A DNA stretch of 64,000 nucleotides. Origin: Saccharothrix sp. HUAS TT1. Lineage in GTDB: Bacteria; Actinomycetota; Actinomycetes; Mycobacteriales; Pseudonocardiaceae. The translations under genes and the position numbers were made by a program. Location: assembly GCF_040744945.1 (NCBI RefSeq), contig NZ_CP160453.1:7192001-7256000 (forward strand), read 5' to 3'. Below, piece by piece: positions 473 to 30,021 of this stretch. The notes beneath the pieces are model-generated. The model made no database searches. It saw only the letters and a program-made list of their open reading frames with translations, and was not told where the DNA came from. Every line of letters begins with the position of its first letter. Position 1 is the stretch's first letter.

Positions 473-558
473 ACGTTGGTTACGAGTACTCGTCGACCTG
501 TTGGCCGTCCACTCGGGCGGCGATGTGCCGAACGGTTGCAGGCGCCGGAATCATCGCG

Positions 559-1656: not shown

Positions 1657-2691
1657 TCATCCAGTGCTTCCCCGGCGGACCGGCAGCTCCCGCTCGCCCG
1701 CCGGCGGGCCGATCAAGTCGAGGAGCTCCCGGTAGGTGCGCCGGAATACGATGCTGAACTTGTCAGCCGGCGTGTGGACCTGGCCGTGCAGGTCGAGCGG
1801 CGCCTCGCGCAGGTGCTGGTTCTCCACGACCGGGTGGTCCTCGACGAAGATCTGCCGTTCGTAGTCGAGCGCGTCCTCGATGTCGGCGCCCTGCGCGAGC
1901 GACACCGGGTCGAGCCCCGCCAGCCAGAACTGCGCGACTTCACCGCCGTCCGCCGTGACGGGGGTCGCCAACTGGGCCACGAACCTCCTGCCGCCGCTGG
2001 GCGCGGTCACGCGGATCGAGGCGAACATCGGCAGGGTGATGTGGTAGTCGAGACGATAGGTGTCGTCCTCGACCGGGCCTTCGGGGCCCGCGAACTCCGG
2101 TCCCACGGAAGCCGACCACGTCAACTGCCAGCCGTCGCGCTCGACCCGGTACGGCTCCACCACCTTCGACACCGTTCCCATCGAGTCCGCGTGCACGAAG
2201 GGGAAGTGCGCCTTGTCCCGGAAGTTCTCGGTCAGCTGCCGCATCCCGCACCGCACCCGGAACGGCGTCCCGGCTGCCACGGCCCAATCGGCGTCCACCG
2301 CGGTGGGCAGTCCGGGGCGCGGAAACAGGGGTTCGCCCAGGCAACTCCACACCAGTCCGTAGGCGACGTCGACCGGGTAGACGGTGAGCGAAGTGCGGGG
2401 CGGGGTGCTGCCCGCGGGCAGCGAAGGCACGTGCGCGCAGCGCCCGTCACCCGGTGCGAAGAGCCAGCCGTGGTAAGGGCACCGCAGTCCTCCCTCGTCG
2501 ATGTCGCCCATGTGCAGGGCGGCGCCCCGGTGCGGGCAGAAGGCGCTGGCCACGGTGACCTCGTCGCCCACCCGGTAGACGACGAGCTCCACGCCCAGGA
2601 TGTTGCCCCTGGCGACCCCGTTCTCCAGGTCCGCCAGGCGCGCCACCGGGAACCACGTCCGGTTCAGCAGTTCGCGTTCGATGTCGAGCAT
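1657..2691 (-). CDS. Rieske non-heme iron oxygenase, VioQ-like candidate
   Basis: 344 residues. The N-terminal Rieske [2Fe-2S] domain shows CPHRGA (C52, H54) and CPYHGW (C71, H74). A mononuclear iron site follows with the pattern TENFRDKAHFPFVH (about residues 155-168), giving the two His ligands, and an acidic third ligand probably lies further on. This is the layout of the alpha-subunit-type, single-component oxygenases of about 340 residues. It is the last gene of the operon, 24 bases after the free-standing A domain gene; GGAGAT precedes the ATG. In viomycin biosynthesis a Rieske enzyme, VioQ, hydroxylates the capreomycidine ring after peptide assembly. With VioC- and VioD-like genes in the same operon, a similar hydroxylation is the best inference, and the new OH could be the site of carbamoylation. 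Family call is firm, substrate is inferred. Confidence 0.9.
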   Translation of the reverse strand: MLDIERELLNRTWFPVARLADLENGVARGNILGVELVVYRVGDEVTVASAFCPHRGAALHMGDIDEGGLRCPYHGWLFAPGDGRCAHVPSLPAGSTPPRTSLTVYPVDVAYGLVWSCLGEPLFPRPGLPTAVDADWAVAAGTPFRVRCGMRQLTENFRDKAHFPFVHADSMGTVSKVVEPYRVERDGWQLTWSASVGPEFAGPEGPVEDDTYRLDYHITLPMFASIRVTAPSGGRRFVAQLATPVTADGGEVAQFWLAGLDPVSLAQGADIEDALDYERQIFVEDHPVVENQHLREAPLDLHGQVHTPADKFSIVFRRTYRELLDLIGPPAGERELPVRRGSTG

Positions 2692-2715
2692 GGGATCTCC
2701 GCGTAGAAGGGGTCG

Positions 2716-4212
2716 TCAACGGGTCAGCCGCCGGAACAGGTCGGTGCCGCCGTCGAGGATGCGGGCCACCTCGCGCCGGTCGACCTTTCCGGAAGCGGTG
2801 AGCGGGATGTCGTCCGCGACGTAGACGTGCCGCGGCAGCATGTGCTCGGGGAGCCGGCGGGACAGCACGGCCCTCAGCTCCCGACGGGTGGTGGGTTCAC
2901 CCGTCGAGAGCTTGACCACCAGGTCGAGCACCGTCTCGTGGCCGCGTTCCCGGGCGAGCGCGACAGCGCTCACGACCGCGGGGTGCTGCTGCGCGACGGC
3001 CTCCAGCTCCTCCGGCTCGACGCGCCGGCCCCGGATCTTGACCTGGTTGTCCATCCGCCCGAGGTACTCGAACACCCCGTTCGGAGCCACCCGGCACAGG
3101 TCGCCGGTGTGGTACTCGGTCGTGCCGCCGGCGCCGACCCGGAACTTCGCCGCCGTGAGTTCGCGGTCACCGATGTACCCGTGCGCGAGGCCGGGCCCCC
3201 CGACCAGCAGCTCCCCCGCGGTCCCGGTTGGAACGGCGCCGCCGTCCGGACCGGCGATCCGCACCGCCGCACCCGCCACCGGGAATCCGATCGGCAGCGG
3301 ATCCGCCATGTCGTCCACGACCTTCCACGCCGTCGTGTAGATGGTGGCCTCGGTCGGCCCGTAGAGGTTCCACACCTCCTCGGAGCACTCCCGGAGCCGG
3401 CGCGCCAGGTCGGTGGAGAGCGCTTCGCCTGCCGTGAGCAGGACGGCTCCGCGCAGCGCCGGTCCCACGAAGGGCAGCGCCAACCGCCACCAGGTCGGCG
3501 TCGCCTGCGCCACCGACACTGGCCTGCGCTCCAGCCACGCCGCCAGTCCTTCGAGGTCGAAGTGGGCGCGCGCCGGCGCCATCGCCACCGCCCCGCCCGT
3601 CACGAGGGGCAGGAGCATCTCCAGCAGCGAGACGTCGAACACCGGGGTGGTCAGCGAGAGCACCAGGTGCCCCGGACCGGCGGGCAGCCGGTCGGCGAAG
3701 TCGGTCAGCAGGCCCGCGAGGGACCGGTGGCCCACCTGGACGCCCTTGGGCCGCCCGGAGGAACCCGATGTGAACAGCACGTAGGCCGCTTCGTCGCCGG
3801 ACGGCGGGACGAGGCCCCACCGCTCGCCGCGCGCGACCCCGGCGGCGGCGTCCACGGCGACCCCGTCGCCGCCGCCCCCGGTGAGGGCCGCTCGGCAGCC
3901 CGCCGTGCGGATCTGGTGGACCCGCCGCTCCGCGGGCGCGTCCGGGTCGAGCGGCACCGCGACCGCACCGAGGGTCCACACCGCCAGCAACGCGACCAGG
4001 TACTCCCCCGACCGCGGAAGTTCCAGCGCGACGCGGTCACCCGGCTCGACCCCGAGCCCCCGCAGGGTCGCGGCCCGCTCGCGCACCAGGTCGTGCAGCC
4101 GCCGGTAGCTGCACGTACCGGAGTCGTCCACGAGGGCGGGGGCGTCGGGTCGGACGGACACCTGTTCCGCGAACAGCTCCGGGACGCGCCGCGGCCGGTC
4201 GATCGCGGTCAC
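2716..4212 (-). CDS. Free-standing NRPS adenylation domain
   Basis: 498 residues from a GTG at 4212 that overlaps the TGA of the preceding NRPS gene (GTGA), so the two are translationally coupled. Only an A domain is present: A3 LFTSGSSGRPKG, A4 FDVSLLE, A5 LYGPTE, A7 YHTGDL, A8 QVKIRGRRVE, A10 ASGKVDRR with the catalytic Lys. There is no carrier domain. Reading the substrate pocket by eye gives D-V-L-Q-L-A-L-I-Y-K, close to the code DILQLGLIWK that I recall for glycine, so a small amino acid is the best guess (weak). Two carrier domains in this operon lack a working A domain: the N-terminal PCP of the preceding protein and the last PCP of the protein at 11540-18613. This enzyme is the obvious candidate to load one or both in trans. 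Confidence 0.92.
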   Translation of the reverse strand: MTAIDRPRRVPELFAEQVSVRPDAPALVDDSGTCSYRRLHDLVRERAATLRGLGVEPGDRVALELPRSGEYLVALLAVWTLGAVAVPLDPDAPAERRVHQIRTAGCRAALTGGGGDGVAVDAAAGVARGERWGLVPPSGDEAAYVLFTSGSSGRPKGVQVGHRSLAGLLTDFADRLPAGPGHLVLSLTTPVFDVSLLEMLLPLVTGGAVAMAPARAHFDLEGLAAWLERRPVSVAQATPTWWRLALPFVGPALRGAVLLTAGEALSTDLARRLRECSEEVWNLYGPTEATIYTTAWKVVDDMADPLPIGFPVAGAAVRIAGPDGGAVPTGTAGELLVGGPGLAHGYIGDRELTAAKFRVGAGGTTEYHTGDLCRVAPNGVFEYLGRMDNQVKIRGRRVEPEELEAVAQQHPAVVSAVALARERGHETVLDLVVKLSTGEPTTRRELRAVLSRRLPEHMLPRHVYVADDIPLTASGKVDRREVARILDGGTDLFRRLTR

Positions 4213-7200
4213 CCGGAGACCCCCGCCTCGACCAGCTTGGCCTCGATGACCCCGGTCAGGGAGGCGAAGACGGGCTCGCGGAACACCGACACCACGTCCA
4301 GTTCCACGCCGAACCTCCGGTGGACCGCGCCGACGAGGCGCAACACCTTGATGGACTCGCCGCCCTGCCGGAAGAAGTCCGACTCGGCGCTGACCTCGTC
4401 CACCTCCAGCACCTCCTTCCAGATCGCGCCGAGGGCGAGCGCGATCCAGCCGTTGTCCCGGTCGGACGACGGACCGCCCGCGCCGGCCGGTGCGGTGGTG
4501 GACGCGGCAGCCGCGAGCAGCGCCTCCCGGTCGACCTTGCCGTTGGGGGTCATCGGGAGGGAGCCGACGGACGCCCACCTCGTCGGCACCATGTACTCGG
4601 GCAGGACCTCCGACAGGTGAGCCCGGACGTCCTCGACCGACACCGGCCCGACCACCACGCCGAGGAGTTCCCGGCCGGCGCCGGAGTCGCGCACCAGGAC
4701 GATGCCGTCGGTCACGCCCGGGCACTGGAGCAGCGTCCGCTCGACCTCGCCGACCTCGACCCGGAAGCCGCGGATCTTCACCTGGGCGTCCCGGCGGCCC
4801 CGGAACACCACGCTGCCGCCCGGTTCGACCAGCACGAGGTCACCGGTCCGGTACAGCCGCTGTCCGGGCACGTCCGAGAACGGGTCCGCGACGAACGCGG
4901 CGGCGGTGCGCGCCGGGTCGCCGAGGTACCCGTGCGCCAAGCCCCGACCGCCGACGTACAGCTCGCCGGTCCCCCCGACCGCCACGGGCGCCAGCCGGTC
5001 GTCGAGGACCCGCAGCCAGGTGTCCTCGACGGCCTTCCCGATCGGCACCTGCCCGTCCGCGACGTCCGCCGCGGTCACCGGGTGGTAGGTGCTGAACGTC
5101 GTGTTCTCCGTTGGCCCGTACACGTGCAGGAAGTCGGTGGGCGGTCCGGCGTCCAGCATGCGGCGCAGGGGCTCCACGGCGTGCTGCTCACCGCCGAACA
5201 GCAGGACCCGCAGTTCCGCGAAGATGTCCGGGACCTGTTCCACCAGCGTGTTGAACAAGGCCGTCGTGACGAACGCGACGGTCGCGCCGCGGGACCGCAG
5301 GAACCCGTGGAAGCGGCGGGCCGACAGCACCACGTCACGGGGCACGACGACGAGTGTCGCCCCGGCGGTGAGGGCGCCCCACACCTCGAACGTCGCGGCG
5401 TCGAACGCGGGGTTCGACAGGTGGACGACGACGTCGTCGGGCTGGATGCGGACGTAGTTCGAGCGCGGCACGAGGCGCGCGACGGCGTCGTGCGGCACGG
5501 TCACGCCCTTGGGCACGCCAGTGGACCCCGAGGTGTGCACGACGTAAGCGACGTGCTGCGGCGTCACCCGCGGCAGCTCCCCGCGGAACGGCCCGCGCGC
5601 CGCCAGGTCGGCCGGGTCCGCCAACGGCAGTGCCGGGACGCCCGGCGGGAGGTGCGCGTCCCCACCCGTCCCGAACAACACCAGGCGCACCCCGGCGTCG
5701 GCCAGGACGGTCCGGCTGCGAGCGGGCGGCTGCCCCACGTCAACCGGGACGTACGCGGCTCCGGCGCGCAGGACTCCGAGCTGGGCGACCACCGCCGCCG
5801 CTCCGCGCCCGGCGGCGATCCCGACCCGATCACCCGGTTCGACACCGCTGTTCACCAGTTCGCGCGCCAGGTGACCGGAGGCGGCCTCCAGTTCGCCGTA
5901 GGTCAGCTCCGCGTCACCGTCGCGCAGCGCCACGGCCCGAGGCCGCTCGGCTGCCGTCGCCACGACGAGGTCGTGCACACCCTCGCCCGGCCCGTCGACC
6001 GGCGGGGGACGGGGCTCGTCCCGGAGGAGCACGGATCCCAGCGGCTCGTCCGGCGCGGCGAGCAGAGCGGCCAGGGTCCCGCGGATCCCGGTGTGGAAGT
6101 GCTCGGCCCGTTCAGGGGAGAACAGGTCGGCGCTGTACTCCACTTCCGAGGCGGTGCCGCCGGGTCGACGGGTCAGCGTCCACAGCAACTCGTACTTCGC
6201 GCCCCCGTTGGGCAGGACACGGCGCACCGCCTCGGCGCCTTCCGGGGCCCACGTCCACGCCGACTCGTCGCTGTAGGAGAACGCGGCCTGGACGAGCGGA
6301 TGGTGCCGGAAGCCGGCGCTCACGGCCCAGTCCCGCGCGATCTGCTGGAACCCGATCTGCTGATGCGCCAGGGCGTCGGCCACCACGCGGCGCACCGAGG
6401 AGACGAGGTCGGTGAACGTCCCCCGCGGATCGACCCGGACCCGGATGGGCAGGATGTTGACGAACATGCCCACGGTGGATTCGTCGGCGGGCGTCCGGCC
6501 TGCCGCCGGGACGCCCACCACCACGTCGTCCCCCGAGCAACGGCGCAGGAAGGCGATGTACGCGGCCAGCGCCACCATGAAGGCGCTCGCGCCCGACGAC
6601 CGGGACAGGTCGTCCAGCGCCGCGTCGGACGCCTCGTCCAGCAGCGCCGAGGAGACCCCTCCCGCGACGCCGACGACCCCGGGTCGCGGGCGGTCGTTGG
6701 GCAGGAAGGGCTTCCCGCTCGCGCCGTCCAGTTGGCGCTCCCAGTAGGCGATCGACTCGTCCCGGTGCGGGAGGACGGCCATGCCGTTCCTCGGCGGCGG
6801 CGGCGAGGAGCCCGCTCCGTAGAGCTGTTGCAGCTCCCGGTCGAGCAGATCCAGGGAATGACCGTCGGCGACGGCGTGGTGCACGATCAGCAGGAGCTTC
6901 CACCGGTCTTCGGCGGCGCGGACGATGAGCGCCCGTGCCGCCGGCGCCTCGTCCAGCCGCACCGGTTCCCGCAGCTCCTCGTCCACCAGGGCGTACGCGG
7001 CGTCGCCCGCGGCCTCCACCACCCTGACGGGCAGCACTGCGGTCTTCTCGACCACCCGCAGCCCTTCGGGCGTGAACCGCGTCCGCAACGCCTCGTGGTG
7101 GTCGACCAGCCGCCGGAGGCAGTCCCGCAGGCGGTCGGGGTCGACTTCGCCGGTGAACTCGTAGAGGACCGGCACCGAGTACAGGGGCGAGCGGGGGTGC

Positions 7201-7484
7201 ACCCCCTGCGCCACTAGCAGCCGCTCCTGGGCGGCGGTGAGCGGCGGTAGGGCGTCGGAGACCCGTCCCACCAGGTCGATCTGCGCGGCAGGGGTCCGGT
7301 GCCCGAAGACGGCGTCCGTCGGGATGTCCACGTCGAACTCCCGACGCAGCCGGAGCGCCAGCTCCACCGCCTGGGTGGAACTGCCGCCGAGCTCGAAGAA
7401 GTCGTCGTCCGGCTCGATGTCCTCGACCTCCAGCAGCTCCCGCCACATCGACAGGAGCACCGCCTCGTCGTCACGCGCCGGCAT
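4209..7484 (-). CDS. NRPS, PCP-C-A-PCP
   Basis: 1,091 residues, ATG at 7484 with GGGAGG about 5 bases upstream; it overlaps the end of the carbamoyltransferase gene by 14 bases. Domains in order: a carrier domain (FFELGGSS, about residue 30), a condensation domain with HHAVADG (about 205), an adenylation domain (A3 VHTSGSTGVPKG, A4 FDAATFE, A5 VYGPTE, A10 NGKVDRE, about 500-990) and a second carrier domain (FFRQGGES, about 1045). The pocket reads D-A-F-F-L-G-V-T-F-K, resembling codes for branched aliphatic residues (Ile/Val). The first PCP has no A domain in cis and the next gene encodes a lone A domain, so the pair looks like a split starter module. It could act as the first synthetase of the line although its gene lies near the 3' end of the operon. 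Confidence 0.93.
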   Translation of the reverse strand: MPARDDEAVLLSMWRELLEVEDIEPDDDFFELGGSSTQAVELALRLRREFDVDIPTDAVFGHRTPAAQIDLVGRVSDALPPLTAAQERLLVAQGVHPRSPLYSVPVLYEFTGEVDPDRLRDCLRRLVDHHEALRTRFTPEGLRVVEKTAVLPVRVVEAAGDAAYALVDEELREPVRLDEAPAARALIVRAAEDRWKLLLIVHHAVADGHSLDLLDRELQQLYGAGSSPPPPRNGMAVLPHRDESIAYWERQLDGASGKPFLPNDRPRPGVVGVAGGVSSALLDEASDAALDDLSRSSGASAFMVALAAYIAFLRRCSGDDVVVGVPAAGRTPADESTVGMFVNILPIRVRVDPRGTFTDLVSSVRRVVADALAHQQIGFQQIARDWAVSAGFRHHPLVQAAFSYSDESAWTWAPEGAEAVRRVLPNGGAKYELLWTLTRRPGGTASEVEYSADLFSPERAEHFHTGIRGTLAALLAAPDEPLGSVLLRDEPRPPPVDGPGEGVHDLVVATAAERPRAVALRDGDAELTYGELEAASGHLARELVNSGVEPGDRVGIAAGRGAAAVVAQLGVLRAGAAYVPVDVGQPPARSRTVLADAGVRLVLFGTGGDAHLPPGVPALPLADPADLAARGPFRGELPRVTPQHVAYVVHTSGSTGVPKGVTVPHDAVARLVPRSNYVRIQPDDVVVHLSNPAFDAATFEVWGALTAGATLVVVPRDVVLSARRFHGFLRSRGATVAFVTTALFNTLVEQVPDIFAELRVLLFGGEQHAVEPLRRMLDAGPPTDFLHVYGPTENTTFSTYHPVTAADVADGQVPIGKAVEDTWLRVLDDRLAPVAVGGTGELYVGGRGLAHGYLGDPARTAAAFVADPFSDVPGQRLYRTGDLVLVEPGGSVVFRGRRDAQVKIRGFRVEVGEVERTLLQCPGVTDGIVLVRDSGAGRELLGVVVGPVSVEDVRAHLSEVLPEYMVPTRWASVGSLPMTPNGKVDREALLAAAASTTAPAGAGGPSSDRDNGWIALALGAIWKEVLEVDEVSAESDFFRQGGESIKVLRLVGAVHRRFGVELDVVSVFREPVFASLTGVIEAKLVEAGVSG

Positions 7485-9273
7485 CAGACACCTCCCGCGC
7501 GCCGTCCGGCGCCGTGTCGCGCCGCACCAGGAAGTCGCCGATGACGAGGGCGTCCAGGGTCGACCGCCGGAACGTGGCGACAGCCTCCTCGGGTGTGCGC
7601 ACGATGGGCTGTCCCCTCAGGTTGAACGAGGTGTTGACCAACACGGGGATGCCGCTGCGGTCACCGGTCTCGCGCAGCAGCTCCCAGAACAGCGGGGACT
7701 GCCCCCGCTCGACGGTCTGCACCCGCGCCGAGCCGTCGACGTGGGTCACGGCGGGCAGCACCTCCCGGTACCGCCGTCGCACCGGCACGACGAACAGCAT
7801 GTGGTGGAAGGTCCGCTCCGACCCCTCCGGGATGTCGAAGTAGGTGGACGCGTCCTCGGCGGGAACCGCCGGTGCGAACGGGCGGAACTCCTCCCGCTGC
7901 TTCACCACGGCGTTGAGGTGGGCGCGCATCGACGGCACCGCGGGGTCGGCCAGGATGCTCCGGTTGCCCAGCGCCCGGGGCCCGAACTCCATCGCGCCCT
8001 GGAACAGGGCCACGACCGATCCGGCGCGGATCAGGTCCACCGCGCGCCGTACGAGGTCGGCGCGGTCGAGGCGTTCCCGGGTGAACCCGCCGCCGAGCGA
8101 CCCGAGCGCGCGTTCGACGTCGGCGGCGGGGAACGACTCGCCCCAGTACGGCATCGACATCCGCGCCGGCTTGAGGTCGTGCCGCCGCCGCACCGCCGCC
8201 AGAGCCGCGCCCAGCGCGCTGCCGTCGTCACCCGACGCCGGTTGCACGAACACCTCGTCGAACAGGCCCTCGCGCAGGACCACGCCGTTGGCCGAGCAGT
8301 TCAACGCGACGCCGCCCGCCATGCACAGCTTCCGCAGGCCGGTCCGCTCCCGGTGCTCCCGCAGCACGTGGAGCAGCGCTCGTTCGAGCGAGTCCTGCAA
8401 CGTGGCGGCGATGTCCATGTGGCGCTGCTCGACCTCGTCGCCCGGTCGGCGCGCCGGGCCGAGCGCCTCCTCCAGTCGTCGCACCACGCCCTGGTGGGTC
8501 TCCCGCTCGAACGGCGTCTTGTTCTCGCTCAGCAGCGGCACGGCGATCTTGCCGCCGGGGCGCAGCCGGAGGAACTCGCCGAACTCCGCCCGGTAGCGCC
8601 GGCGGTCGCCGTACGGCGCGAGCCCCATGACCTTGTACTCGTCCATGTTGATGAGGAAGCCGAGGTAGTGCGTGACCACCCCGTAGAGGACTCCCAGCGA
8701 GTTGAGCGCGGAATGGGCGTCGACCAGGTCCAGTCGTCCGCCCCGACCGGTGTAGACGGAGGTCGCCTCGCTCTCCCCCATGCCGTCCGCGACCAGCACC
8801 AGCGCGTCCTCGAAGCCGCTCGGGTAGTAGGTGCTCGCCGCGTGCGCCAAGTGGTGCTTGACGTGCAGGAACTCCTGATCCGACCGGAGCGGGTGGTACG
8901 CGGTGAACGTCTCGCGCTGCACGTCCTGCGCGTAGACCCGCGAGTACCAGCCGCGGAGGTTGTCGTCCAGCTGCCAGAGCGGTGAGTCCTCGTAGCGGAA
9001 GCCGTGCGCCACCACGTCGATGTCGGCCATGGTGACCCCCGCGATGCGCAGGCAGCCCTCGATGGCGTCCCGGGGGAAGGCGCCGGTGGCCTTCACACCG
9101 TCGTGCCGTTCCTGTGCGGACGCGGCCACCACGCCGTTCTCGTCCACCAGGACGGCGGCGGAGTCGAAACCCTGGGCGATGCGCCTCTCACGCGTGAGCC
9201 CGGGTCCCAGGACTTCGGCCTTGAACGTCGCGCTGCGGTCCAGGCCGCTGATGCCGAGTGCTAGCACCGCCAC
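7471..9273 (-). CDS. O-carbamoyltransferase, NodU/CmcH family
   Basis: 600 residues from a GTG at 9273. The family transfers a carbamoyl group from carbamoyl phosphate, through carbamoyl-AMP, to a hydroxyl group; members act in cephamycin, novobiocin, tobramycin and nodulation-factor biosynthesis. Diagnostic strings are KHHLAHAASTYY (about residue 140, metal-binding His residues), GGVALNCSANG (about 320) and FGPRALGNRSIL (about 425). Length matches the family. The gene lies between the capreomycidine-type enzymes and the PCP-C-A-PCP synthetase, so it probably carbamoylates a hydroxyl of the peptide or of one of its residues (hydroxy-capreomycidine or threonine are candidates; inference). Viomycin and capreomycin use a different, ornithine-carbamoyltransferase-like enzyme, so this is a point of difference. 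The start is uncertain because a 9-codon ORF with a better ribosome site overlaps it. Confidence 0.93.
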   Translation of the reverse strand: MAVLALGISGLDRSATFKAEVLGPGLTRERRIAQGFDSAAVLVDENGVVAASAQERHDGVKATGAFPRDAIEGCLRIAGVTMADIDVVAHGFRYEDSPLWQLDDNLRGWYSRVYAQDVQRETFTAYHPLRSDQEFLHVKHHLAHAASTYYPSGFEDALVLVADGMGESEATSVYTGRGGRLDLVDAHSALNSLGVLYGVVTHYLGFLINMDEYKVMGLAPYGDRRRYRAEFGEFLRLRPGGKIAVPLLSENKTPFERETHQGVVRRLEEALGPARRPGDEVEQRHMDIAATLQDSLERALLHVLREHRERTGLRKLCMAGGVALNCSANGVVLREGLFDEVFVQPASGDDGSALGAALAAVRRRHDLKPARMSMPYWGESFPAADVERALGSLGGGFTRERLDRADLVRRAVDLIRAGSVVALFQGAMEFGPRALGNRSILADPAVPSMRAHLNAVVKQREEFRPFAPAVPAEDASTYFDIPEGSERTFHHMLFVVPVRRRYREVLPAVTHVDGSARVQTVERGQSPLFWELLRETGDRSGIPVLVNTSFNLRGQPIVRTPEEAVATFRRSTLDALVIGDFLVRRDTAPDGAREVSDAGA

Positions 9274-9290
9274 TTCCTCTCTAGTGTCAT
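9261..9290 (-). CDS. Nine-codon ORF preceding the carbamoyltransferase gene
   Basis: ATG at 9290 encodes MTLERKWRC and stops at TAG 9263-9261, overlapping the GTG start of the carbamoyltransferase in another frame. A strong ribosome site (CAGGAGGG) sits 6-7 bases before this ATG, whereas the GTG has only AGAGGA almost abutting it. It may be a leader that couples translation, or it may mark a misplaced start or sequencing indel. Confidence 0.35.
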   Translation of the reverse strand: MTLERKWRC

Positions 9291-9319
9291 GTCGGTTCCC
9301 TCCTGTGGGGTGATGGCGG

Positions 9320-10486
9320 CTAGCCCGGCGACAGGATGTCGCGCACGCGCCGGACCCGGTTCGCCCCGCCGGCGCGGATCGCCTCCGCGATCGCGGTGAG
9401 CCCGGCGTCGAACTCGGTCCGGTCGCCGCCGAAACCGATGCGGATGTGGTCGGGGTGACCGAAGCAGCTGCCGGGCACGACGAGCACGCCGCGGTCCACC
9501 GCCAGGTCCTCGCACAGCGCGTCCACGGCCGGCACCCCGAAGAGCTGCGGGAACGCGGACACGCCGCCCTGCGGAGGAGCGCACGCCACGATGTCGGCGT
9601 TCTCGGCCACCCACGTCAGGAACGCCTCGCGGTTCGCGGCCGCCGTCCGCAGCAGGGGACCGATCACCCGGTCCGCGTTCTCGACCACCCGGGTCGCGAT
9701 CAGCTCCGTCAGCGGTGACGTGCTGATGGTGAGGTAATCGCGGATGCGCGCCATCCCGGTCAGCAGCTCCGGCGGGGCGAAGCACCACCCGACCCTCAGC
9801 CCCGGCAGACCGTACGCCTTCGACAGGGTGCCGAAAGACACGCAGCGCTCCAACTCCGTCGTGGGATCCGGCAACGACGGGGCGTCGTAGACGAGATCGC
9901 TGAAGGCCCCGTCCCACAGCAGGTGGCAGCCGTGCGCCGAGACCAGCTCCAGCAGTTCCCGGTAGGCGGGCCGATCGAGCGTGGTCCCGGTCGGGTTGTG
10001 CGGGAAGTTGACGATCACCGCTTTCGTCCGCGCGTCCAGGAGCGCGCGCAGCTCGCGCGGGTCCGGTCGGAAGTCGTTCTCCGGGCGCAGCCGCCAGACC
10101 TTGAGCGTCGCGCCCAGCGCCTCCGCGATCGAGGACAGCGACTGGTAGGCAGGCGCGAGCACCACGACCTCGTCACCGGGTTCCAGCAGCGCCGCCAAGG
10201 CCAGGAAGATCGCCTCGCTCGATCCGTGCGTGACCATGACACGCCCGGCCGCTCCCGGCGCGTACCTGGCCGCCAGGGCTTCCCGCAGCCCTTCGCAGCC
10301 GACGCCGGGGCTGTCCCGGAACACCGTCCGGGACAGCTCCCCGTCGTCCAGCCCGACGAGTTCGGACAGCTCGCCGAGCGAGTAGTTCCGGACGCCCGAG
10401 CTGGAGACGTCGATCGGCACGGTGAAGTAGCGCTCGCGCAACCAGTCCTCCAGCAGGGCCGGCGCCACCGATCCCAGGTTCACCAC
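9320..10486 (-). CDS. PLP-dependent aminotransferase-fold enzyme, capreomycidine synthase (VioD) type
   Basis: 388 residues, GTG start 4 bases after the stop of the VioC-like gene. It is a fold-type I class I/II aminotransferase homologue: NFPHNPTG (about residue 158), an Asp in LLWDGAFSDLVYD, and the PLP lysine in SKAYGLPGLRVGW (about 225). VioD of viomycin biosynthesis has the same fold but acts as a cyclase: it eliminates water from (3S)-3-hydroxyarginine and closes the guanidino ring to L-capreomycidine. Its position directly after a VioC-like hydroxylase, as in the viomycin, capreomycin, streptothricin and muraymycin pathways, is the main reason for the specific call. The sequence alone would also fit a general aminotransferase. 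Confidence 0.82.
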   Translation of the reverse strand: MVNLGSVAPALLEDWLRERYFTVPIDVSSSGVRNYSLGELSELVGLDDGELSRTVFRDSPGVGCEGLREALAARYAPGAAGRVMVTHGSSEAIFLALAALLEPGDEVVVLAPAYQSLSSIAEALGATLKVWRLRPENDFRPDPRELRALLDARTKAVIVNFPHNPTGTTLDRPAYRELLELVSAHGCHLLWDGAFSDLVYDAPSLPDPTTELERCVSFGTLSKAYGLPGLRVGWCFAPPELLTGMARIRDYLTISTSPLTELIATRVVENADRVIGPLLRTAAANREAFLTWVAENADIVACAPPQGGVSAFPQLFGVPAVDALCEDLAVDRGVLVVPGSCFGHPDHIRIGFGGDRTEFDAGLTAIAEAIRAGGANRVRRVRDILSPG

Positions 10487-10490
10487 CGGA

Positions 10491-11453: not shown

Positions 11454-11539
11454 GCCAACCTCCGAGGTCTGTGTGGTAGCGCCACCCGTTGTCCGAACCC
11501 CCCGGTCCGCGGTGGAGGAGGGCGGGGCAGGAGCGCCGG

Positions 11540-21600: not shown

Positions 21601-21756
21601 CTTCCGCAGCACGGCGACGTCGAGCGGTCCGTGGAGGTGCAGCACCAGCTGCGGCGTGTACACGTCCGGACCGGACGGGTCGTACGCGGCGTGGAACACC
21701 ATTCCGTGCTGCAAGGGGGACAGCGGTAGGACGTCCTCCAACGGCGACTGCTTCAT
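18610..21756 (-). CDS. NRPS, single module C-A-PCP, probable basic amino acid
   Basis: 1,048 residues, ATG at 21756 overlapping the previous stop (ATGA). The condensation domain starts [10 protein letters not shown] and carries HHIVLDGW; the PLSPLQ start is typical of domains that accept a D-configured donor, consistent with the E domain ending the previous protein. The A domain (about residues 470-950) has A3 [12 protein letters not shown] (an unusual Asn-Glu in the loop), A5 VYGLTE and A10 [19 protein letters not shown] near 985. The pocket reads D-V-E-E-A-G-V-V-T-K. Two acidic residues in the pocket are a hallmark of A domains taking Lys, Orn, Arg or similar, so this module is the best candidate for capreomycidine or hydroxyarginine (inference). 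Confidence 0.93.
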
Positions 21757-24700
21757 CGTGAGCCCTCCCGCTCGGCTGCCAACTGCTCCTCGAACTCGTC
21801 GACCTCGTCCTGGGACAACGTGGTCAGGGTCAGGTCGGACGGGGTGTGCCCGCCCGCACCGGCCTTCCCGGCGTGCGCGACCAGTCCGTCCAGCACGCGC
21901 CGCCAGGTGTCGGACAGATCCGCGACGTCCGCTTCGTCGAGCACACCGCCGGGCCACGTCCACAGCACCGTCATGCGCGGTCCGCCGGTCTCGTCCGACG
22001 TGATCGCGGCGACCTCCAGGACGTGCGGCAGCGGCGTGTCCGGTGCCGAGAGCCCTCTCAGGGCGGTGCTCCCCGGCGCCGCGGCCCAGTCGGCCCCGGT
22101 CCCGGCGGCGAACCGCCCGAGGTAGTTGAACCCGACCTGGGCCTGCGGGCAGCGGGCCAGGACAGCACCCGTGTCGTGGTTCAGGTAGCGGAGCAAGCCG
22201 TAGTCGAACCCGTTGTTCGGCACCGCCCGCAACTGCTCCTTGACGAGCTTCACGGCGCGGCCGAGCGCGGCGCCGCCGTCCTCGACCGCCCGTCGGTCGA
22301 CCTGCCCGGCATCGAGCCGCACCGGGTGCAGGCTGGTGAACCACCCGACCGTGCGGGACAGGTCGACGTCGCCCTCCACCGCCTCCCGGCCGTGCCGCTC
22401 CACGTCCACCAGGAGGGAGGTGCCCGCGTCCGCGCCTCTCCGGTCCCGCCACTCCGCCACGGCGACGGCGAGTGCGGCCAGCATGAGGTCGTCCACACCC
22501 GCGTGGAAAGCACCGGCGACGGTGGTGAGCAGGGGTTCGACCAGGTCGGGGGGCAACTCCTGCGCGATCGTGCGGCTGCTGCCCTCCACGTCGACGCGGG
22601 GGTCGAGCGGGCGTCGCCCCAACGAGGTCTCAGCCCGGTCGAGCACACCGGTCCAGGTGTTCAGCTGGTGCACGGCATCGGGGGCGTGCGCACGTTCCAC
22701 CAGCCTCCTCGCCCAGGTCCGGAACGAGGTGGCCACCGGTTCCAGGGCCGGGGCGCGCCCCGCCCCCACCTCCGCCCACGCGGCGGCCAGGTCGGACATG
22801 AGGATGCGCCACGAGACGCCGTCCACAGCCAGGTGGTGCACCACCAGGAGGAGGCGGTGCGGCGCGGTCGGACCGCCGTCCAACCACACCGCGCGGAACA
22901 CCACGCCCTTCGCCGGGTCCAGCTCACCGACTGCGAGTTCCAACTGCTCCTCGGCCACCGCCGGCAGCGCTTCCTCGCGCGTCCCGCTGACGTCCACCCG
23001 CACCAGGTGGTCGCCGGCTCGGACCGCGTCGGGCGGTGCGATGTCCAACCCCGACGTGCGGGCGGCGTCGACCACGGCCCGGGCCCGCAGCACGTCGTGC
23101 CGGTCCAGGACCGCCTGGAGCACGGTGGTCAGCGCGTCCTCGGTGAGTTCGCCCGGGACCTTGAGTAGCACGGACTGGGCGAAGCGCCGGACAGGACCGG
23201 CGAAGGACTCGACCCAGTGCATGATCGGGGTCAGCGGCACGTGTCCCAGGCCGTCGTCGGGTGCGTCCGGCGTGCCGGGCCGTGCGCGCCCCGACAGGTG
23301 CGCCAGTGCGGCGGGTGTCGGGTTCTGGTGCACGTCGCGCGGTGTGAGGGGAATGCCCGCCTTGCGCGCCCGGCCGACGAGCTGGATGGAGACGATGCTG
23401 TCCCCGCCCAGTTCGAAGAAGTTGTCGTCGGCGCCGACCTCGGGCTTGCCGAGCAGTTCGGCGAACAGCCCGCACAGCAGCTCCTCCTCGGGGGTGCGGG
23501 GTTCGCGGCGGAGGGGTTCGACGGCGTGTTCCGGTTCCGGGTTCGGCAGGCGGTCCTTGTCGACCTTGCCGGTGGGGGTGCGCGGGAGCTCGGGCACCAC
23601 GCGCAGCCAGGAGGGGACCATGTGCTCGGGGAGGCGCTCCCTGAGCCACTTGCGGACACCGCGGGCGTCGACGTCCTCGGCGCCGTCCTTCGGCACGACG
23701 TAGCCGGCGAGGGCCGGGCCGCCGGCTGCGTCGTGGCGCAGCACCACCACCGCACCGGCCACGGCGGGGTGCCCGGCGAGGGTCGCCTCGATCTCACCGG
23801 GTTCGATCCGGAAACCGCGCAGGTTGACCATGTCGTCGGCGCGGCCGACGTACTCCAGGGCGCCGTCCGGTCGTTGCACGACCAGGTCACCGCTGCGGTA
23901 GAGCCGGGCTCCGGAGGTCGCCGCGACGAACCGCTGCGCGGTCAGCGCCGGGCGACCCAGGTATCCCCTGGCCAGGCGCTCGCCGCCGACGTGGAGTTCA
24001 CCGGTCGCCCCCAGCGCGACGGGTATCCCCGCCGGGTCGAGCACACGGCCCTCCAGTCCCGCGACGGGCCTGCCGATGCGGGTGAAGCGTCCGCCGATCG
24101 CGCTGTCGTCGAGCACCTGGGCGGTGACGTGGACGGTGGTCTCGGTGATGCCGTACATGTCGACCAACCGCGGCCGGTCCCACCCGCGGCGGTCCGCCCA
24201 GTCGCGGACGGAAGCCCGGTCGAGGGCCTCTCCGCCGAAGACGACGAGGCGCAGCGCCAAGTCCGCGCGAGCCCTGGCGTCCACGGTGTTGAACTGGACG
24301 AAGGCCGTGGGGGTCTGGCTCAGGACCGTGACCCCCTCACGCACCACCAACTCGTAGAACTCGTCCGGGTCCCGGGACTCCCAGAACGGGACCACCACCA
24401 GACGCCCACCCGTCGCCAACGCACCCCACATCTCCCACACCGAGAAGTCGAACGAGTAGCTGTGGAACAGCGACCACACGTCGCCCTCGTCCAGCGCGTA
24501 TTCCGATCGGGCCCAGTCGATGAGCCGGGTGACGTTGTGGTGGCTCACCACCACACCCTTCGGCCGCCCCGTCGAACCAGACGTGTAAATCACATACGCC
24601 GCATTACCCGGAACCACCACAACACCCGGATCAACAACCGGCTGATCCCTGAAAACCGGACCACCCAAATCCGCCTCCAACACCTCCCACGACCCCTCCG

Positions 24701-27700
24701 GAACCACCCCACCCGGCTCCACCAACACCAACGAAACACCAGAATCCGCCAACAAATAACCCACACGATCAACCGGATAACCCGGATCGACAGGAACATA
24801 CGCCGCCCCCGCCTTCAACACCCCCAACAACAACACAACCAGGTCCAACGACCGACGCGCACTCACACCGACCAACGACTCCACACCCACACCACGACCA
24901 CGCAACACCCACGCCACACGATTCGCACGCGCATTCAACTCCGCATACGACAACCCCACACCACCACACACCACCGCCACCGCGGACGGCGACACCACCG
25001 CCCACCGCTCAACCCACTCATGAACACACCCACCACCAACACCACCCGAAACACCCGACCACAACCCCACCACCCCCACCTCACCGGCGGAGGACAGGGA
25101 CTTGTGGAGATAGCGCTGGGACGGCTCGGCGACCATCGCGCTCAGGGCCTTGAGCAGGTACCCGCGGAAGAGGACGACCTGGTCCTCCCGGAGCACGTCG
25201 AGGTGGTAGTCGATGCCGAGCAGCAGGCCGTTGGCGGCCGGGTTCCGCAGGAATCCCACGTTGAGCGGGAAGTCGGTGGGCTCGGCGCGCTGGGTCGTGA
25301 AGCTGTCGATCTTCCCGTCGATGAACTTCACACCCCGCTCGAAGATGCCGCTCACGACGTGGAAGTGGTTGTAGACGAAGTTGGCCTCGATCAGCCGGCC
25401 GCCGCCCAACTTCCGCTGGAGAGCCGCGAGGGGGAACCGGCGGTGGGGGAGCATCTCCTGCTCGGCCGCGGAGACCGCCCGGATCAGGTCTTCCCAGGTG
25501 CCGTCCGGCAGGGTGAGCCGCAGCGGCAGCGTGTTCAGGAACAGCCCGCGGACCTCCTCACCCCCGACCTCCTCCACCCGCCCGTTGGCGGTGACGCCCA
25601 CCACCACTTCGTGGGAGGCCGTCAGGTGGCTGACGGCTCGCAGGTAGGCGGCCAGCAGCACGACCTTCACCTGGACACCGCACCGGCGCGCGAGCTCCTC
25701 CAAGCCGTCACCGAGCTCCTGCGTCAGCAGCGTCTCCACCGCGCCGTACTTCTGCTCCGGGCTGGCGTAGCGCCATTCACCGCCGACGGCGATCTCCTCG
25801 GGGAAGGTGACGGTCTCGGTGTCGGCCCACCTCGGCAGCTGGGTGACCGGCTTCCCGCTGAGGCGCCGGAGCCAGAACTCCTCGCTCTCGGACGACTTCA
25901 CCGCCTGCTGCTCCAACGCGATGAAGTCGCGGTACAGCGATCGTTGCGGCTGCGGGACCGGCTCCTCACCCGCGAGGATCGCCAGGTAGACCTCGAAGAT
26001 CTCCGCGATGGTCGAGTGCAGGCTCCAGCCGTCGAACACGGCGTGGTGCTCGGTGAGCGTCCACTGGAACACCGCGTCGGAACGCCGGTGGACGGCCATC
26101 CGGAACAGCGGCGGACGAGCGTGGTCGAACGGGCTCCGGCGCTGGCGCTCCAGGTAGGCGCGGACCACCTCGTCCTGGGCGGCGCGGCCCTGGTCACGCA
26201 GGTCCTCCACGTGCAGGGGCATTTCGGCGTGCGGGTGGACGAGCTGCATCGGCACGCTGTAGTCGGCGAGCGCGAACGACGTGCGCAGGATGGGGTGCCG
26301 CAGCACGACGTGCTCCAGCGCCCGGCGGAACGCCCCTTCCTCGAAGACCGCCTCCACCTCGAAGCTGTCGACGTTGTGGTAGGGCAGGCGGTCCGGGTCC
26401 CGCTCCATCTCGTACACCATCCCGACCTGCAACGCGGCCATCGGGTAGGCGTCCACCAGGTCGTCCGGCAGCAGTGCGGCGTCGACCTCGGCGACCAGGT
26501 CGAAGGGAACCGCACCGGGGCGGGCGGTCGGGGCCGCGGCCGATGTCGCCACTTCGGCCAGGCCGGCGACCGTCGGGCGGCGGAACAGGTCCTGGAGCGT
26601 GAAGGCGATGCCCTCGTCCGCGGCGAGCCCCATCACCTTGATGCTGCGGATCGAATCGCCGCCCAGCTCGAAGAAGTTGTCCCAGCGGCCCACCGCGTCC
26701 AGGCCCAGCGCCCGTTCCCACACGGTCGCCAACCGCCGTTCCACCTCGCCGACAGGGGGGTCGAAGCCCTGTGCGATGCCGGGGCGATCGGCGCCCGGCA
26801 CGGGCAGCAGCTTGCGGTCCACCTTGCCGGTGGGCGTGACCGGCACGGCGTCCAGCACCAGGAAACGCGCGGGGACCATGTAGTCGGGCAGTTCCGCGGC
26901 GACCCAGCGGCGCAGTTCCGTCTCCGTGAGCGCGGTCCCGGCGGGCGCGACGTAGCCGACCAGCAGTGGCCGGCCCTCGTCGTCCTCGTGCAGGGCGACC
27001 GCCGCGCCCGTGACACCGGGGTGATCGCCGAGCACCGCTTCGATCTCCCCGAGCTCCACCCGGAAACCGCGGATCTTGATCATGTCGTCGGCCCGCCCGA
27101 CGTACTCCAGCCGTCCGTCCGACCTCATCCGCGCGAGGTCACCGCTGCGGTACAACCGCGCGCCGGGCGTGCCCGTGACGCTGTCGGGCACGAAGCGCTG
27201 CGCGGTCAGGGCGGATCGGCCGAGGTAGCCCCGCGCCACGCCCGCGCCGCTGACGTAGATCTCGCCCACGACACCCAGCGGGCTGGGTCGCAGGTTCTCG
27301 TCGAGGAGGTGGATGCCGGTGTCGACCAGCGGCCGACCCACCTGCGTCAGCGCCCTGGTCAGGTCGTCGGCGTCGAGTCGGCGGAAGGTGGTGTGGACGG
27401 TGGTCTCGGTGATCCCGTACATGTTGACCAACCGCGGCCGGTCCCACCCGCGGCGGTCCGCCCATCGCCGCACCGAGCCGTGGTCCAGCGCCTCACCCGC
27501 GAAGATGACGTAGCGGAGCGCGAGGTCGGCGCGGCGCTTCGCGTCGACGGCCTCGAACTGGACGAAGGCCGTGGGGGTCTGGCTCAGGACCGTGACCCCC
27601 TCACGCACCACCAACTCGTAGAACTCGTCCGGGTCCCGGGACTCCCAGAACGGGACCACCACCAGACGCCCACCCGTCGTCAACGCACCCCACATCTCCC

Positions 27701-29723
27701 ACACGGACACGTCGAAGGAGTAGCTGTGGAACAGCGACCAGACGTCATCGGTGGAGAACGAGAAGTTCTCCTTGGCGGCTTCGACGAGTCGGGTGACGTT
27801 GTGGTGGCTCACCACCACACCCTTCGGCCGCCCCGTCGAACCAGACGTGTAAATCACATACGCCGCATTACCCGGAACCACCACAACACCCGGATCAACA
27901 ACCGGCTGATCCCTGAAAACCGGACCACCCAAATCCGCCTCCAACACCTCCCACGACCCCTCCGGAACCACCCCACCCGGCTCCACCAACACCAACGAAA
28001 CACCAGAATCCGCCAACAAATAACCCACACGATCAACCGGATAACCCGGATCGACAGGAACATACGCCGCCCCCGCCTTCAACACCCCCAACAACAACAC
28101 AACCAGGTCCAACGACCGACGCGCACTCACACCGACCAACGACTCCACACCCACACCACGACCACGCAACACCCACGCCACACGATTCGCACGCGCATTC
28201 AACTCCGCATACGACAACCCCACACCACCACACACCACCGCCACCGCGGACGGCGACACCACCGCCCACCGCTCAACCCACTCATGAACACACCCACCAC
28301 CAACACCACCCGAAACACCCGACCACAACCCCACCACCCCCACCTCACCGGCGGGAGCCATGGGCAGTGACCCGATCGCGGTCCCGGGTTCGCGCAGACC
28401 GCTGCGGAGGATCTCGCCGAAGTGGGAGGAGAACCGCTCGGCGGATTCGCGGTCGAACAGGTCGACGCAGTACTCGACCTCCACGTCGTAGCCGGACGCC
28501 CCGGAGTGGACGGAAAGGGTGAGGTCGAACTTGGCGGTGCCCGTCGAACCGATCCGGTGGTCGAGCCGGAGCCCTTCCCCCACCTGCACCGGCGGAGTCG
28601 TCTCGTGGAACGCGAACAGCACCTGGACGACCGCGCCGTAGCTCGGATCGCGGTTCGAGCCCAGGTTGTCGACCAGGAAGTCGAAGGGCGCCTTGAGGTT
28701 CTGCAGCGCGTCCAGCACGGTCGCCCGCGTGGCGGCCACGTGCTCCTCGAACGACCGGGACGGCGAGACCCGGGACCTCAGCACCAGGGTGTTGACGAAC
28801 AGGCCGACCACGTCGGCGAACCGCCCGTCGGACCGCCCCGCCACCGGTGAGCCCACCACGAAGTCCCGCTGACCGCCCTCCCGGGACACGAAGGCCGTGA
28901 AAGCCGCCAGGAGCACGATGTAGGGCGTGACCCCGAACCGCTGGGCGGCGGCGCGCACCGAGTCGCGGACATCCGGTCCCAGCGAGAACTCCAGCGTCTC
29001 GCCGCGATGGGTGAACTCGCGCGGTCGCGGGCGGTCCCGGCCGAGTTCGACGACGTCCGGCACGCCCTCCAGCGCGGACCTCCAGAAGTCGATCGACCGC
29101 TTCGCCTCGTCCGTCGCCAGCCATTCGCGTTGCCCGTGCGAGTAGTCGCCGTAGTCCCCGATCGCCGGCGCCACGACGGCGCCGGGATCGCGGTACGCCT
29201 CGACGAGGTCGCGTTGGAACACCTCCAACGACCAGCTGTCGAACACGATGTGGTGGAACGTCAGGTGGACCACGCACTCGTCGGGGCGAACCAGGTACAC
29301 GGCCGCACGCACCAGCGGCCCTTCGCCGAGGTCGAAAGGCCGGCGCGATTCGGCCGCGATCCCCTCGTCCACGAGCGCGCGGGCCTCGTCCGGGTCCCGC
29401 GCCGTCAGGTCGACGAGGGCGCAGGTCAGCTCCCGGTCCGACCGCACCACCTGCACCGGTTCGCCGTCGACCTCGTCGAACGACGAGAGGAGGACGGGGT
29501 GGCGCGCCACGGCGGCGCGCACCGCGTCCACCACCCGGTGGCCATCGACCGTCCCGGTGAACCGCCACGTGACCGGGGAGTTGTAGGTGGCCTTCTCCGA
29601 CGTCCACCGGTCCAGGAACCACAGCCGGCGCTGCTCGCGGGTCGCGGGCCAGGTCCTCCGCGCGACCCGCTCCCCACCGGCCCGAGCCGCGGTCGCGGCA
29701 TTCCACTCCGCCCTGCCGACCAT
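21753..29723 (-). CDS. NRPS, C-A-PCP-C-A-PCP-E
   Basis: 2,656 residues; ATG at 29723 starts MVGRAEWN. Module 1: C (HHIVFDSW), A (about 478-960), PCP (FFELGGDSI, about 1021). Module 2: a divergent C domain beginning [10 protein letters not shown] with [10 protein letters not shown] (about 1565-2060), PCP (FFELGGDSI, about 2107), then an epimerization domain with [29 protein letters not shown] and FNYLGRF. Both A domains carry A5 as MYGITE. Pockets read D-V-W-S-I-A-M-V-H-K and D-F-W-S-V-G-M-V-H-K; the second matches Thr-type codes well, the first less so. The E domain implies a D residue (D-Thr or D-allo-Thr) handed to the next protein. The N-terminal halves of the two A domains are encoded by an identical 565-base stretch (separate entries). 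Confidence 0.94.
24526..25090. repeat. 565-bp exact repeat, copy 1 (second A domain)
   Basis: Base-for-base identical, on reading, to 27790-28354, with a constant offset of 3,264 bases, one module length. It encodes the end of the C-A linker and A1 to A3 of the second adenylation domain. Codon choice changes abruptly inside it: many coding-strand codons end in T or G (GTT, GGT, GTG, TTG) in contrast to the C-ending codons around it. A second shared block of about 145 bases lies at 24291-24443. Confidence 0.9.
27790..28354. repeat. 565-bp exact repeat, copy 2 (first A domain)
   Basis: Partner of 24526-25090. Identity breaks off sharply at both ends (a C/T difference at 24525/27789 and divergence after 25090/28354), and substrate-pocket residues downstream differ between the two domains. 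The matching second block is at 27555-27707. Confidence 0.9.
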
Positions 29724-29808
29724 GTCCCCACAACCTCCAGATAGCGAACGAACAAAAGCGCCGACAGTCGGACAGGAAATGCGGAACGGTGCTCCCGACG
29801 AAGCCCGA

Positions 29809-30021
29809 CTACGCCTGGCCCATGCTTTCGACCAGGCTGCGCGGACGCATGTCGACCCAGTTCCGCTCGATGTGGTCCAGGCACGCGGAGCGCGCGTCCG
29901 GACCGAAGTCGACGCTCCAACCTGCTGGAACGTCCAGGAACGAGGGCCACAGCGAGTACTGCGCCTCGTCGTTGACGAGCACCAGGAAAACCCCGTTCTC
30001 GTCGTCGAAGACATTGCTCAC
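29809..30021 (-). CDS. mbtH: MbtH-like protein
   Basis: 70 residues from a GTG at 30021, chosen because GGGAGA sits 6-7 bases upstream and because it gives the standard family N-terminus SNVFDDENG. Family signatures are present: [20 protein letters not shown], and [10 protein letters not shown]. MbtH proteins bind A domains and are often needed for their folding or activity. It is the first gene of the operon, 85 bases before the first synthetase, and is the only MbtH gene seen, so it probably serves several of the A domains encoded downstream. Confidence 0.96.

Follow-up and report, generated by a model that had tools for sequence, protein, structure and literature searches.

A ten-gene operon predicted to assemble a carbamoylated capreomycidine peptide on a two-lineage NRPS line

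We describe an operon of ten genes whose probable product is a carbamoylated, capreomycidine-containing peptide of seven (or six) residues, so far undescribed and built on a chimeric NRPS assembly line. Capreomycidine is a rare arginine-derived amino acid of the tuberculosis drugs viomycin and capreomycin. The product predicted here is carbamoyl-Gly-Ile-Dhb-D-Thr-(5-hydroxy)capreomycidine-Val-X. The operon joins a carbamoyltransferase (CT) cassette to capreomycidine genes, and the chemistry is a prediction. If true, this would add a new peptide scaffold to the viomycin and capreomycin chemical space. It would also reveal a new mode of starting an NRPS, with a carbamoyl cap set on a carrier-bound starter, and a natural case of two assembly lines joined within one gene, which could be useful for NRPS engineering. 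Since a CT followed by PCP-C-A-PCP was found in six other examined clusters, the answer obtained for this operon could explain a wider family.

The window is the whole stretch of DNA analyzed, 64,000 nucleotides of Saccharothrix sp. HUAS TT1. Its positions 30021 to 1657 (minus strand) are occupied by a single tightly packed, intact operon. The gene and domain content, read directly from the sequence, is given below together with two neighboring genes:

29809..30021, minus strand: MbtH-like protein, gene 1 of the operon, 70 aa, GTG start (PF03621, 94 bits; 91.7 bits in the genome search)
21753..29723, minus strand: N1, NRPS with C-A1 (DVWSIAMVH)-PCP-C2 (CmodAA type)-A2 (DFWSVGMVH, Thr-like)-PCP-E (Pfam, A codes)
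25113..26453, minus strand: N1-C2, condensation domain of the CmodAA (dehydrating) type (solved relatives and motif check)
18610..21756, minus strand: N2, NRPS with C-A (DVEEAGVVT)-PCP, likely the capreomycidine module (domain scan, code comparison)
11540..18613, minus strand: N3, NRPS with C-A (DAYFWGATF, Val-like)-PCP-C-A* (degenerate)-PCP-TE (domain scan, codes)
10491..11453, minus strand: VioC-like Fe(II)/2OG arginine beta-hydroxylase (TIGR03946 match, kept metal-binding motifs)
9320..10486, minus strand: VioD-like capreomycidine synthase, PLP (TIGR03947)
7471..9273, minus strand: NodU/CmcH-type CT of the putative initiation cassette (PF02543/PF16861; cassette; CT-PCP fusions)
4209..7484, minus strand: N4, putative initiation NRPS with PCP-C-A (DAFFLGVTF, Ile-like)-PCP (Pfam, codes)
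2716..4212, minus strand: A5, stand-alone A domain (DVLQLALIY, Gly-like; Pfam, code)
1657..2691, minus strand: VioQ-like Rieske oxygenase (PF00355, viomycin-cluster comparison)
30253..30873, plus strand: ArsR-type winged-helix regulator, divergent from the operon and a putative member of the cluster (PF12840, 54 bits)
30870..32135, plus strand: MFS transporter that may export the product (PF07690, 118 bits)

All ten operon genes are open and lie on the minus strand. The likely starts include ATG 29723 for N1, ATG 21756 for N2, GTG 18613 for N3, TTG 11453 for VioC and GTG 4212 for A5. By start and stop positions, adjacent genes overlap or are separated by at most 90 nt, so a single transcript is likely. 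The initial annotation had proposed a minus-strand operon with the VioC-like, VioD-like, CT, Rieske and NRPS genes, and all of these are present. Its domain strings (PCP-C-A-PCP, C-A-PCP-C-A-PCP-E, C-A-PCP and C-A-PCP-C-A*-PCP-TE) are correct according to the domain scan, which adds the stand-alone A domain, and its estimate of about seven residues is supported. It had overlooked the MbtH gene, the CmodAA domain in N1 and the cassette made up of the CT, PCP-C-A-PCP and the stand-alone A. The scan found no NRPS domains in the window outside 1660-29657 and none in the 20 kb to the left; 20 ORFs chosen on the right are unrelated genes by Pfam. Among the scanned ORFs, a general rather than dedicated search turned up neither a partner for the Rieske enzyme nor a resistance gene.

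The operon carries a VioC, VioD and VioQ-type set by similarity, which suggests a supply of capreomycidine. VioD scores 516.5 bits on TIGR03947 (516.4 in a repeat), above the curated cut-off of 390.9, and VioC scores 367-371 bits on TIGR03946 (371.2), below the cut-off of 418.6. When aligned with CmnC and VioC, the operon's VioC-like protein keeps the motifs GWHTEDAF, DNRNVVHGR and CIDRDF, which we take to hold the Fe-binding His/Glu/His and the substrate Asp residues. Its lid loop is shortened, as it is in four other loci (L010, L011, L099 and L027). It also passes the GntD model, a match that we set aside as not diagnostic because viomycin VioC and a CmnC-like protein pass it too. The Rieske protein (67 bits on PF00355) is 64% identical to the Rieske protein of the Streptomyces californicus viomycin cluster, taken from the contig whose VioC matches the crystallized viomycin VioC, and 77% identical to that of Nonomuraea thailandensis. 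Three Rieske matches outside VioD regions in the same 13 genomes are 31-34% identical, versus 64% for the viomycin-cluster protein. This comparison supersedes a reading from the PDB alone, in which SxtDIOX/SxtT came out best. The proposed supply of capreomycidine and the VioQ-type Rieske are both supported, with VioC below its own cut-off. Where would the residue be inserted? N2 has the A code DVEEAGVVT, and codes matching D[VTAI]E[ED] were seen in 25 A domains, all belonging to VioD-bearing sources. They make up 25 of the 128 A domains of these sources and 0 of 44 in the nine CT sources that lack VioD (Fisher 3.2e-4). With sources that have any A domain as the unit, the figures are 25 of 54 VioD-bearing and 0 of 8 CT sources lacking VioD (Fisher 0.011). 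The C domain of N2, judged by eye from its N-terminal motif, is presumably DCL-like. These codes make N2 the likely capreomycidine module.

The CT raises a different question: what does it carbamoylate? It has both Pfam domains of the NodU/CmcH family (221 bits on PF16861, 166 bits on PF02543), and its closest relatives with solved structures are NovN, GdmN and TobZ, which we take to be O-carbamoyltransferases. Together with N4 and A5 it forms a cassette that recurs, whole or partial, in NRPS clusters without capreomycidine genes. Among ten other CT sources, one of which (G902) gave no gene context, PCP-C-A-PCP follows the CT in six and a stand-alone A is next in line in only three (G760, G632 and G1129); the cassette is absent in Amycolatopsis vastitatis and G106. 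A second CT cluster in the same genome as the window has a partial cassette, whose stand-alone A is 35% like A5. For both A5 and N4-A, the best counterparts are the corresponding A domains in two of the six sources with CT and PCP-C-A-PCP. Seven CT-PCP fusion proteins were compared, and in every one the attached PCP matches N4-PCP1 better than it does any of the window's other six PCPs, by small margins (1.5 to 10.4 bits) and in fusions that are mutually related. This recurrence and this resemblance are observed directly. They suggest that the CT is better read as an enzyme of the initiation cassette tied to N4-PCP1 than as one that tailors the peptide late by O-carbamoylation. The most likely acceptor of the carbamoyl is then the starter on its carrier, perhaps through the amine, rather than a late hydroxyl. 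Of the earlier designation as a NodU/CmcH O-carbamoyltransferase, the family assignment stands and the late O-tailoring role is disfavored.

The assembly line itself has a mixed ancestry. We compared its NRPS features with 15 capreomycidine loci and 8 CT loci, hand-picked from the fetched ones. Ten of the 20 features, those at the front, match the CT clusters best, and the ten at the back match the capreomycidine clusters best, with a single switch inside N1. Only these 20 were counted, because the placement of CT, VioC, VioD and Rieske largely follows the choice of sets. The front lineage comprises N4, A5, CT and N1 up to A2; the back one comprises N1-PCP2/E, N2, N3, VioC, VioD and Rieske. 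Judged by this pattern, which is seen in the sequences, the line is a chimera of two lineages whose domain matches split inside N1. More tentatively, CT, PCP-C-A-PCP and stand-alone A may be a portable cassette whose NodU-family enzyme N-carbamoylates the amine of the PCP-bound starter to give a terminal urea, and this front end, with a Dhb-forming C domain, may have been spliced onto a capreomycidine back end inside one NRPS gene.

Domain N1-C2 is of the CmodAA type by its closest solved relatives, McyA (295 bits) and AmbE (183 bits), the next scoring 124 bits. According to PMC11342130, the CmodAA motif is [K/R]SVLLAAH plus neighboring T, E and R residues, with the His present in 48 of 50 CmodAA domains and the Thr at the neighboring site in 82%. 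N1-C2 reads KVVLLAAY, with Tyr at the His site and Val at the Thr site; RR is kept, as is the E by our reading of the alignment. The "Thr-like" residue 3 of the initial annotation is retained here, with the change that it is probably dehydrated by N1-C2. The second A domain of N3 is degenerate, lacking Asp at position 235, with YPPGST as its A3 motif and glutamate in place of the A10 lysine. Hence, the last residue would be loaded in trans, as described for an A-less module of capreomycin (PMC12400406).

These elements can be put together into a pathway. The residue identities, read from A codes that we take to mean Gly, Ile, Thr and Val, are inferred, as are their order, the dehydration, the choice of N- over O-carbamoylation and the form of release. 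A5 would adenylate a small starter, probably Gly, and load N4-PCP1 in trans. The CT would then carbamoylate the bound starter, most likely at the alpha-amine, since Gly has no hydroxyl. N4 would add Ile. The Thr-like residue brought in by N1 would be turned into Dhb by the CmodAA domain of N1 as it is joined to the following Thr, which the E domain would epimerize to D-Thr. VioC would hydroxylate arginine and VioD cyclize the resulting 3-hydroxyarginine to capreomycidine, for N2 to insert and the VioQ-like Rieske to hydroxylate at C5. N3 would add Val and the trans-loaded last residue, and its TE would release the peptide. For the predicted residues without the last one, the calculated [M+H]+ is 669.368, or 685.363 if capreomycidine is 5-hydroxylated; a heptapeptide would be heavier by one residue.

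Other readings must be weighed. The CT could act late, on a hydroxyl of the growing or finished peptide such as that of D-Thr or 5-hydroxycapreomycidine. We hold this to be a serious though rather improbable possibility: the solved relatives are presumed O-carbamoyltransferases, a CT lies near VioD in 5 of 80 capreomycidine-type loci and the predicted product has hydroxyls, but the CT also neighbors the initiation NRPS in clusters where VioC and Rieske genes are absent, and in seven of seven fusions the attached PCP looks like that of the starter. It is unlikely that the CT acts on the first PCP but on a starter other than Gly, through a hydroxyl or a side-chain amine. The predicted starter codes do differ across cassettes (DVLQLALIY, DMPYVAGVC, DMPWIGAVV and DVFAIAAVF). 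Yet that of A5 is nearest to the DILQLGLIW type, presumably specific for Gly, and the retention of the CT across differing starters is easier to reconcile with a shared backbone amine.

Quite unlikely, finally, is a partly disabled line that bypasses the last module and releases a hexapeptide, or that makes nothing. The degenerate A3 and A10 motifs in N3-A2 and the motif HHIVFDS of N1-C1, versus HHxxxDG, would fit such decay. Set against them are ten open genes, seven PCPs that all keep their serine, a TE that keeps GWSLG and the capreomycin precedent of an A-less module served in trans (PMC12400406). N-carbamoylation of the bound starter on a working line remains our preferred reading.

Searching by VioD in 25 genomes of the genus and 390 of the family returned no orthologous cluster, the best other VioD being 60% identical. 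The best other CT in 394 class, 392 Streptomyces and 386 family genomes is 62-64% identical. Relatives at 83% exist for both CT and VioD, and metagenome proteins reach this figure (P0002 and P0122); no close relative of A5 was found, the best reaching 48%, versus that 83%.

The open-access literature, searched partly with other points in mind, yielded no described product with this combination, in line with the initial annotation. Its further claim that the line is unlike that of viomycin or capreomycin is borne out. Those systems share with the operon the VioC, VioD and VioQ-type set (by similarity, the operon's VioC being below cut-off), and another genome of the window's genus has a VioC nearly identical to CmnC. 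The operon differs from them in its modules, E, CmodAA and TE domains, NodU-type CT and trans-A initiation cassette. Its ten genes include none for Dap supply, VioJ or VioL and no five-module VioA/I/F/G order, which we take to be traits of tuberactinomycin clusters. Capreomycin also shares an MbtH and a module whose A domain is not functional (PMC12400406). Faulknamycin and cyclofaulknamycin (flk, fau) are likewise NRPS peptides that contain capreomycidine and involve a VioC-type hydroxylase; in the parts of PMC8399532 consulted, their cluster lacks VioD and a terminal TE, has other modules and comes without mention of a CT, and the first three features led us to reject it as a match. Biffamycin A was also set aside: its VioC relative is presumed to act on Lys, and the word "carbamoyl" is absent from the passages of its text examined.

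VioC, VioD and a CT are not unique in themselves as a combination, and it is the full combination for which no product was found. In 5 of 80 loci, VioD has a CT (36-37% identical to ours) no more than 10 kb away, and the same holds for A. vastitatis (45%). We take the five to be streptothricin-type; they unite VioC, VioD and a NodU-type CT in one locus and, unlike the operon, have no such assembly line. The streptothricin-type CT serves a sugar. Further parallels lie on the two sides of the chimera. In G760, G632, G1129, G382, G383 and Amycolatopsis antarctica, a CT 54-63% identical to ours is followed by PCP-C-A-PCP (and in the first three by the stand-alone A), and several of the CT-cassette clusters have CmodAA-type C domains. 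Unlike the operon, their fetched stretches are without VioC, Rieske and a capreomycidine-type A code, and G382 and G383 have only weak aminotransferase matches to VioD (101 and 89 bits). On the other side, N. thailandensis, Wenjunlia tyrosinilytica (L069), Actinacidiphila guanduensis (L009) and NEAU-GS5 (L010) share an NRPS end with TE followed by VioC-VioD, the TE being separate in the capreomycidine cluster of G217. All five differ from the operon in having no CT in the stretches examined, and N. thailandensis, NEAU-GS5 and G217 share with it the DVEExGVVT codes.

The NRPS operon that the initial annotation placed at 1657..30021 is real and intact, running on the minus strand from 30021 down to 1657. 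Adjacent genes overlap or lie at most 90 nt apart, so a single transcript is likely. At the level of genes this reading is solid; the chemical steps discussed below are predictions. The features of this part of the 8.7-Mb genome are as follows.

Features of the operon and the rest of the window
1-1466 and L176:16516-19998: nSTAND1-WD40 protein, ending at the left edge of the window; apparent transposase remnants, seen by eye, come next
30021-1657, minus: operon, in the order MbtH, N1, N2, N3, VioC-like, VioD-like, carbamoyltransferase (CT), N4, stand-alone A domain (A5), Rieske oxygenase
30253-32135, divergent from the operon: ArsR-type regulator and MFS transporter
32105-33568, minus, convergent with the MFS gene: HTH_31/AAA_16 protein, a possible further cluster regulator
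40211-41407: DDE_5 transposase
42213-52121, minus: RHS-repeat protein of 3302 aa that contains a pretoxin HINT domain and has a Tox-REase-3 fold at its C terminus; polymorphic-toxin-like, unrelated to the operon
52273-54234 and 54835-56766, plus: neighbouring pair of tachylectin-domain proteins

The assembly line appears to join two lineages. We compared 24 features with loci carrying CT relatives (CT clusters) or VioD relatives (capreomycidine clusters) and counted 20, since the outcome for CT, VioC, VioD and Rieske was largely predetermined by the choice of sets. CT clusters gave the best match for 10 of the 20 (A5, four N4 domains and five N1 domains through A2) and capreomycidine clusters for the other 10 (N1-PCP2, N1-E, three of N2 and the five non-PCP domains of N3). 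The best-match lineage switches once along the assembly order, within N1 after A2, with narrow margins for the two N4 PCPs (2 bits each), N1-PCP2 (9 bits) and N3-A1 (17 bits). No E domain was found in the CT clusters compared. The two N1 A domains (23556-25016 and 26814-28280) are 84.5% identical at the DNA level across 1415 bases despite different specificity codes, a sign of internal copying that points to recent gene conversion or duplication.

The CT side brings a putative initiation cassette of CT, PCP-C-A-PCP (here N4) and a stand-alone A domain. Among ten other CT sources, picked for CT similarity, CT is followed by PCP-C-A-PCP in six (G760, G632, G1129, G382, G383 and A. antarctica), with a stand-alone A directly next in the first three. 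A second cluster of the same genome has the cassette in part, A. vastitatis and G106 depart from it, and in G902 the contig ends. A5 is 44-46% identical to the stand-alone A domains of G760 and G632 and 35% to that of the own-genome cluster (other compared A domains, <=38%); the N4 A domain is 49-50% identical to cassette A domains (others, <=42%). Three A5 homologues (P0243, P0244, P0248) and three CT homologues (P0129, P0154, P0158) have longest contigs of equal size, as expected of neighbours. Seven CT homologues among the 120 matches listed carry a fused PCP, in all seven nearest to N4-PCP1 among the seven window PCPs (margin, 1.5 to 10.4 bits), which ties CT to a carrier-bound starter. 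The A5 code is nearest to a glycine-type code. Glycine would leave the amine as sole acceptor, and our preferred prediction from these sequences is that CT would N-carbamoylate the starter. Among the matches listed, VioD and CT have an 83% metagenome relative each (P0002, P0122), but the best A5 relative reaches 48% (P0242); the sister cluster might start with a different unit or be fragmented. Several CT-cassette clusters (L184-L187 in G382 and G383, L170-L171, L168-L169, L190) have as many as four A domains in a row with SDLDxGxVD-like codes, in which Ser replaces the amine-binding Asp235. These perhaps serve beta- or other non-alpha-amino acids.

The second C domain of N1, of CmodAA type, matches McyA best among solved C domains (295 bits; AmbE, 183; others, <=124), and its motif class recurs in the CT clusters of G760, G632, G383, G106, A. 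antarctica and the own genome. It keeps in part the motif residues reported in PMC11342130, with Tyr for His and Val for Thr; the dehydration activity of such domains is described for albopeptide in PMC10880069.

On the capreomycidine side, N2 is the likely module for inserting this residue. Its A code, DVEEAGVVT, recurs unchanged in G217, and similar codes are present in N. thailandensis, L010 and A. vastitatis. Across 91 sources, D[VTAI]E[ED] codes occur in 25 A domains, every one of them from a source with a VioD relative: 25/128 A domains against 0/44 from nine CT sources lacking one (Fisher 3.2e-4), or 25/54 against 0/8 sources with any A domain (Fisher 0.011), p-values that are optimistic because the sequences are related. 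The code is absent from half of the VioD-bearing sources in the stretch examined. A. vastitatis contig 85 (L145-L147) combines a CT (45%), DVEEVGVVS, VioC and VioD, without the PCP-C-A-PCP cassette.

How could capreomycidine be supplied? With 516 bits, the VioD-like protein exceeds the 390.9-bit cut-off of the capreomycidine-synthase model. It belongs to a broad family (of 7998 candidates scored, 1959 had E <=1e-40); the 120 matches listed include a single relative of 83% identity, and the rest are at <=64%. The VioC-like protein has CmnC and VioC as nearest solved proteins and is 53% identical to S. californicus VioC, which agrees with the crystallised viomycin enzyme. It falls under the VioC-model cut-off (371 against 418.6). 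Its lid loop is shortened, as in several VioD-linked homologues, and the alignment shows that the motifs for metal and substrate binding are conserved. One of 25 genomes of the genus encodes a VioC almost identical to CmnC of capreomycin. The operon Rieske is 77% identical to an N. thailandensis enzyme encoded ~13 kb away from VioD, 64% to that of the viomycin cluster and 54-55% to one in Kitasatospora MAA4, against 31-34% for three other Rieske matches in the 13 genomes compared. By analogy with VioQ, presumably the C5 hydroxylase of capreomycidine, we infer that it would hydroxylate capreomycidine at C5.

In the open-access papers searched we found no product with this combination, in line with the initial annotation; it may be described elsewhere. 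Identity with faulknamycin and with streptothricin was rejected. A tuberactinomycin cluster is ruled out: those clusters have Dap, VioJ and VioL type genes, the operon has none of these, and its modules differ, bearing out the earlier view of an assembly line unlike viomycin or capreomycin. One parallel with capreomycin stands at the last residue. N3-A2 has neither D235 nor the A10 lysine, and its A3 loop is abnormal; its PCP must therefore receive a residue from another source or be bypassed. For this module with a degenerate A domain, CmnI of capreomycin offers a proven parallel, according to PMC12400406.
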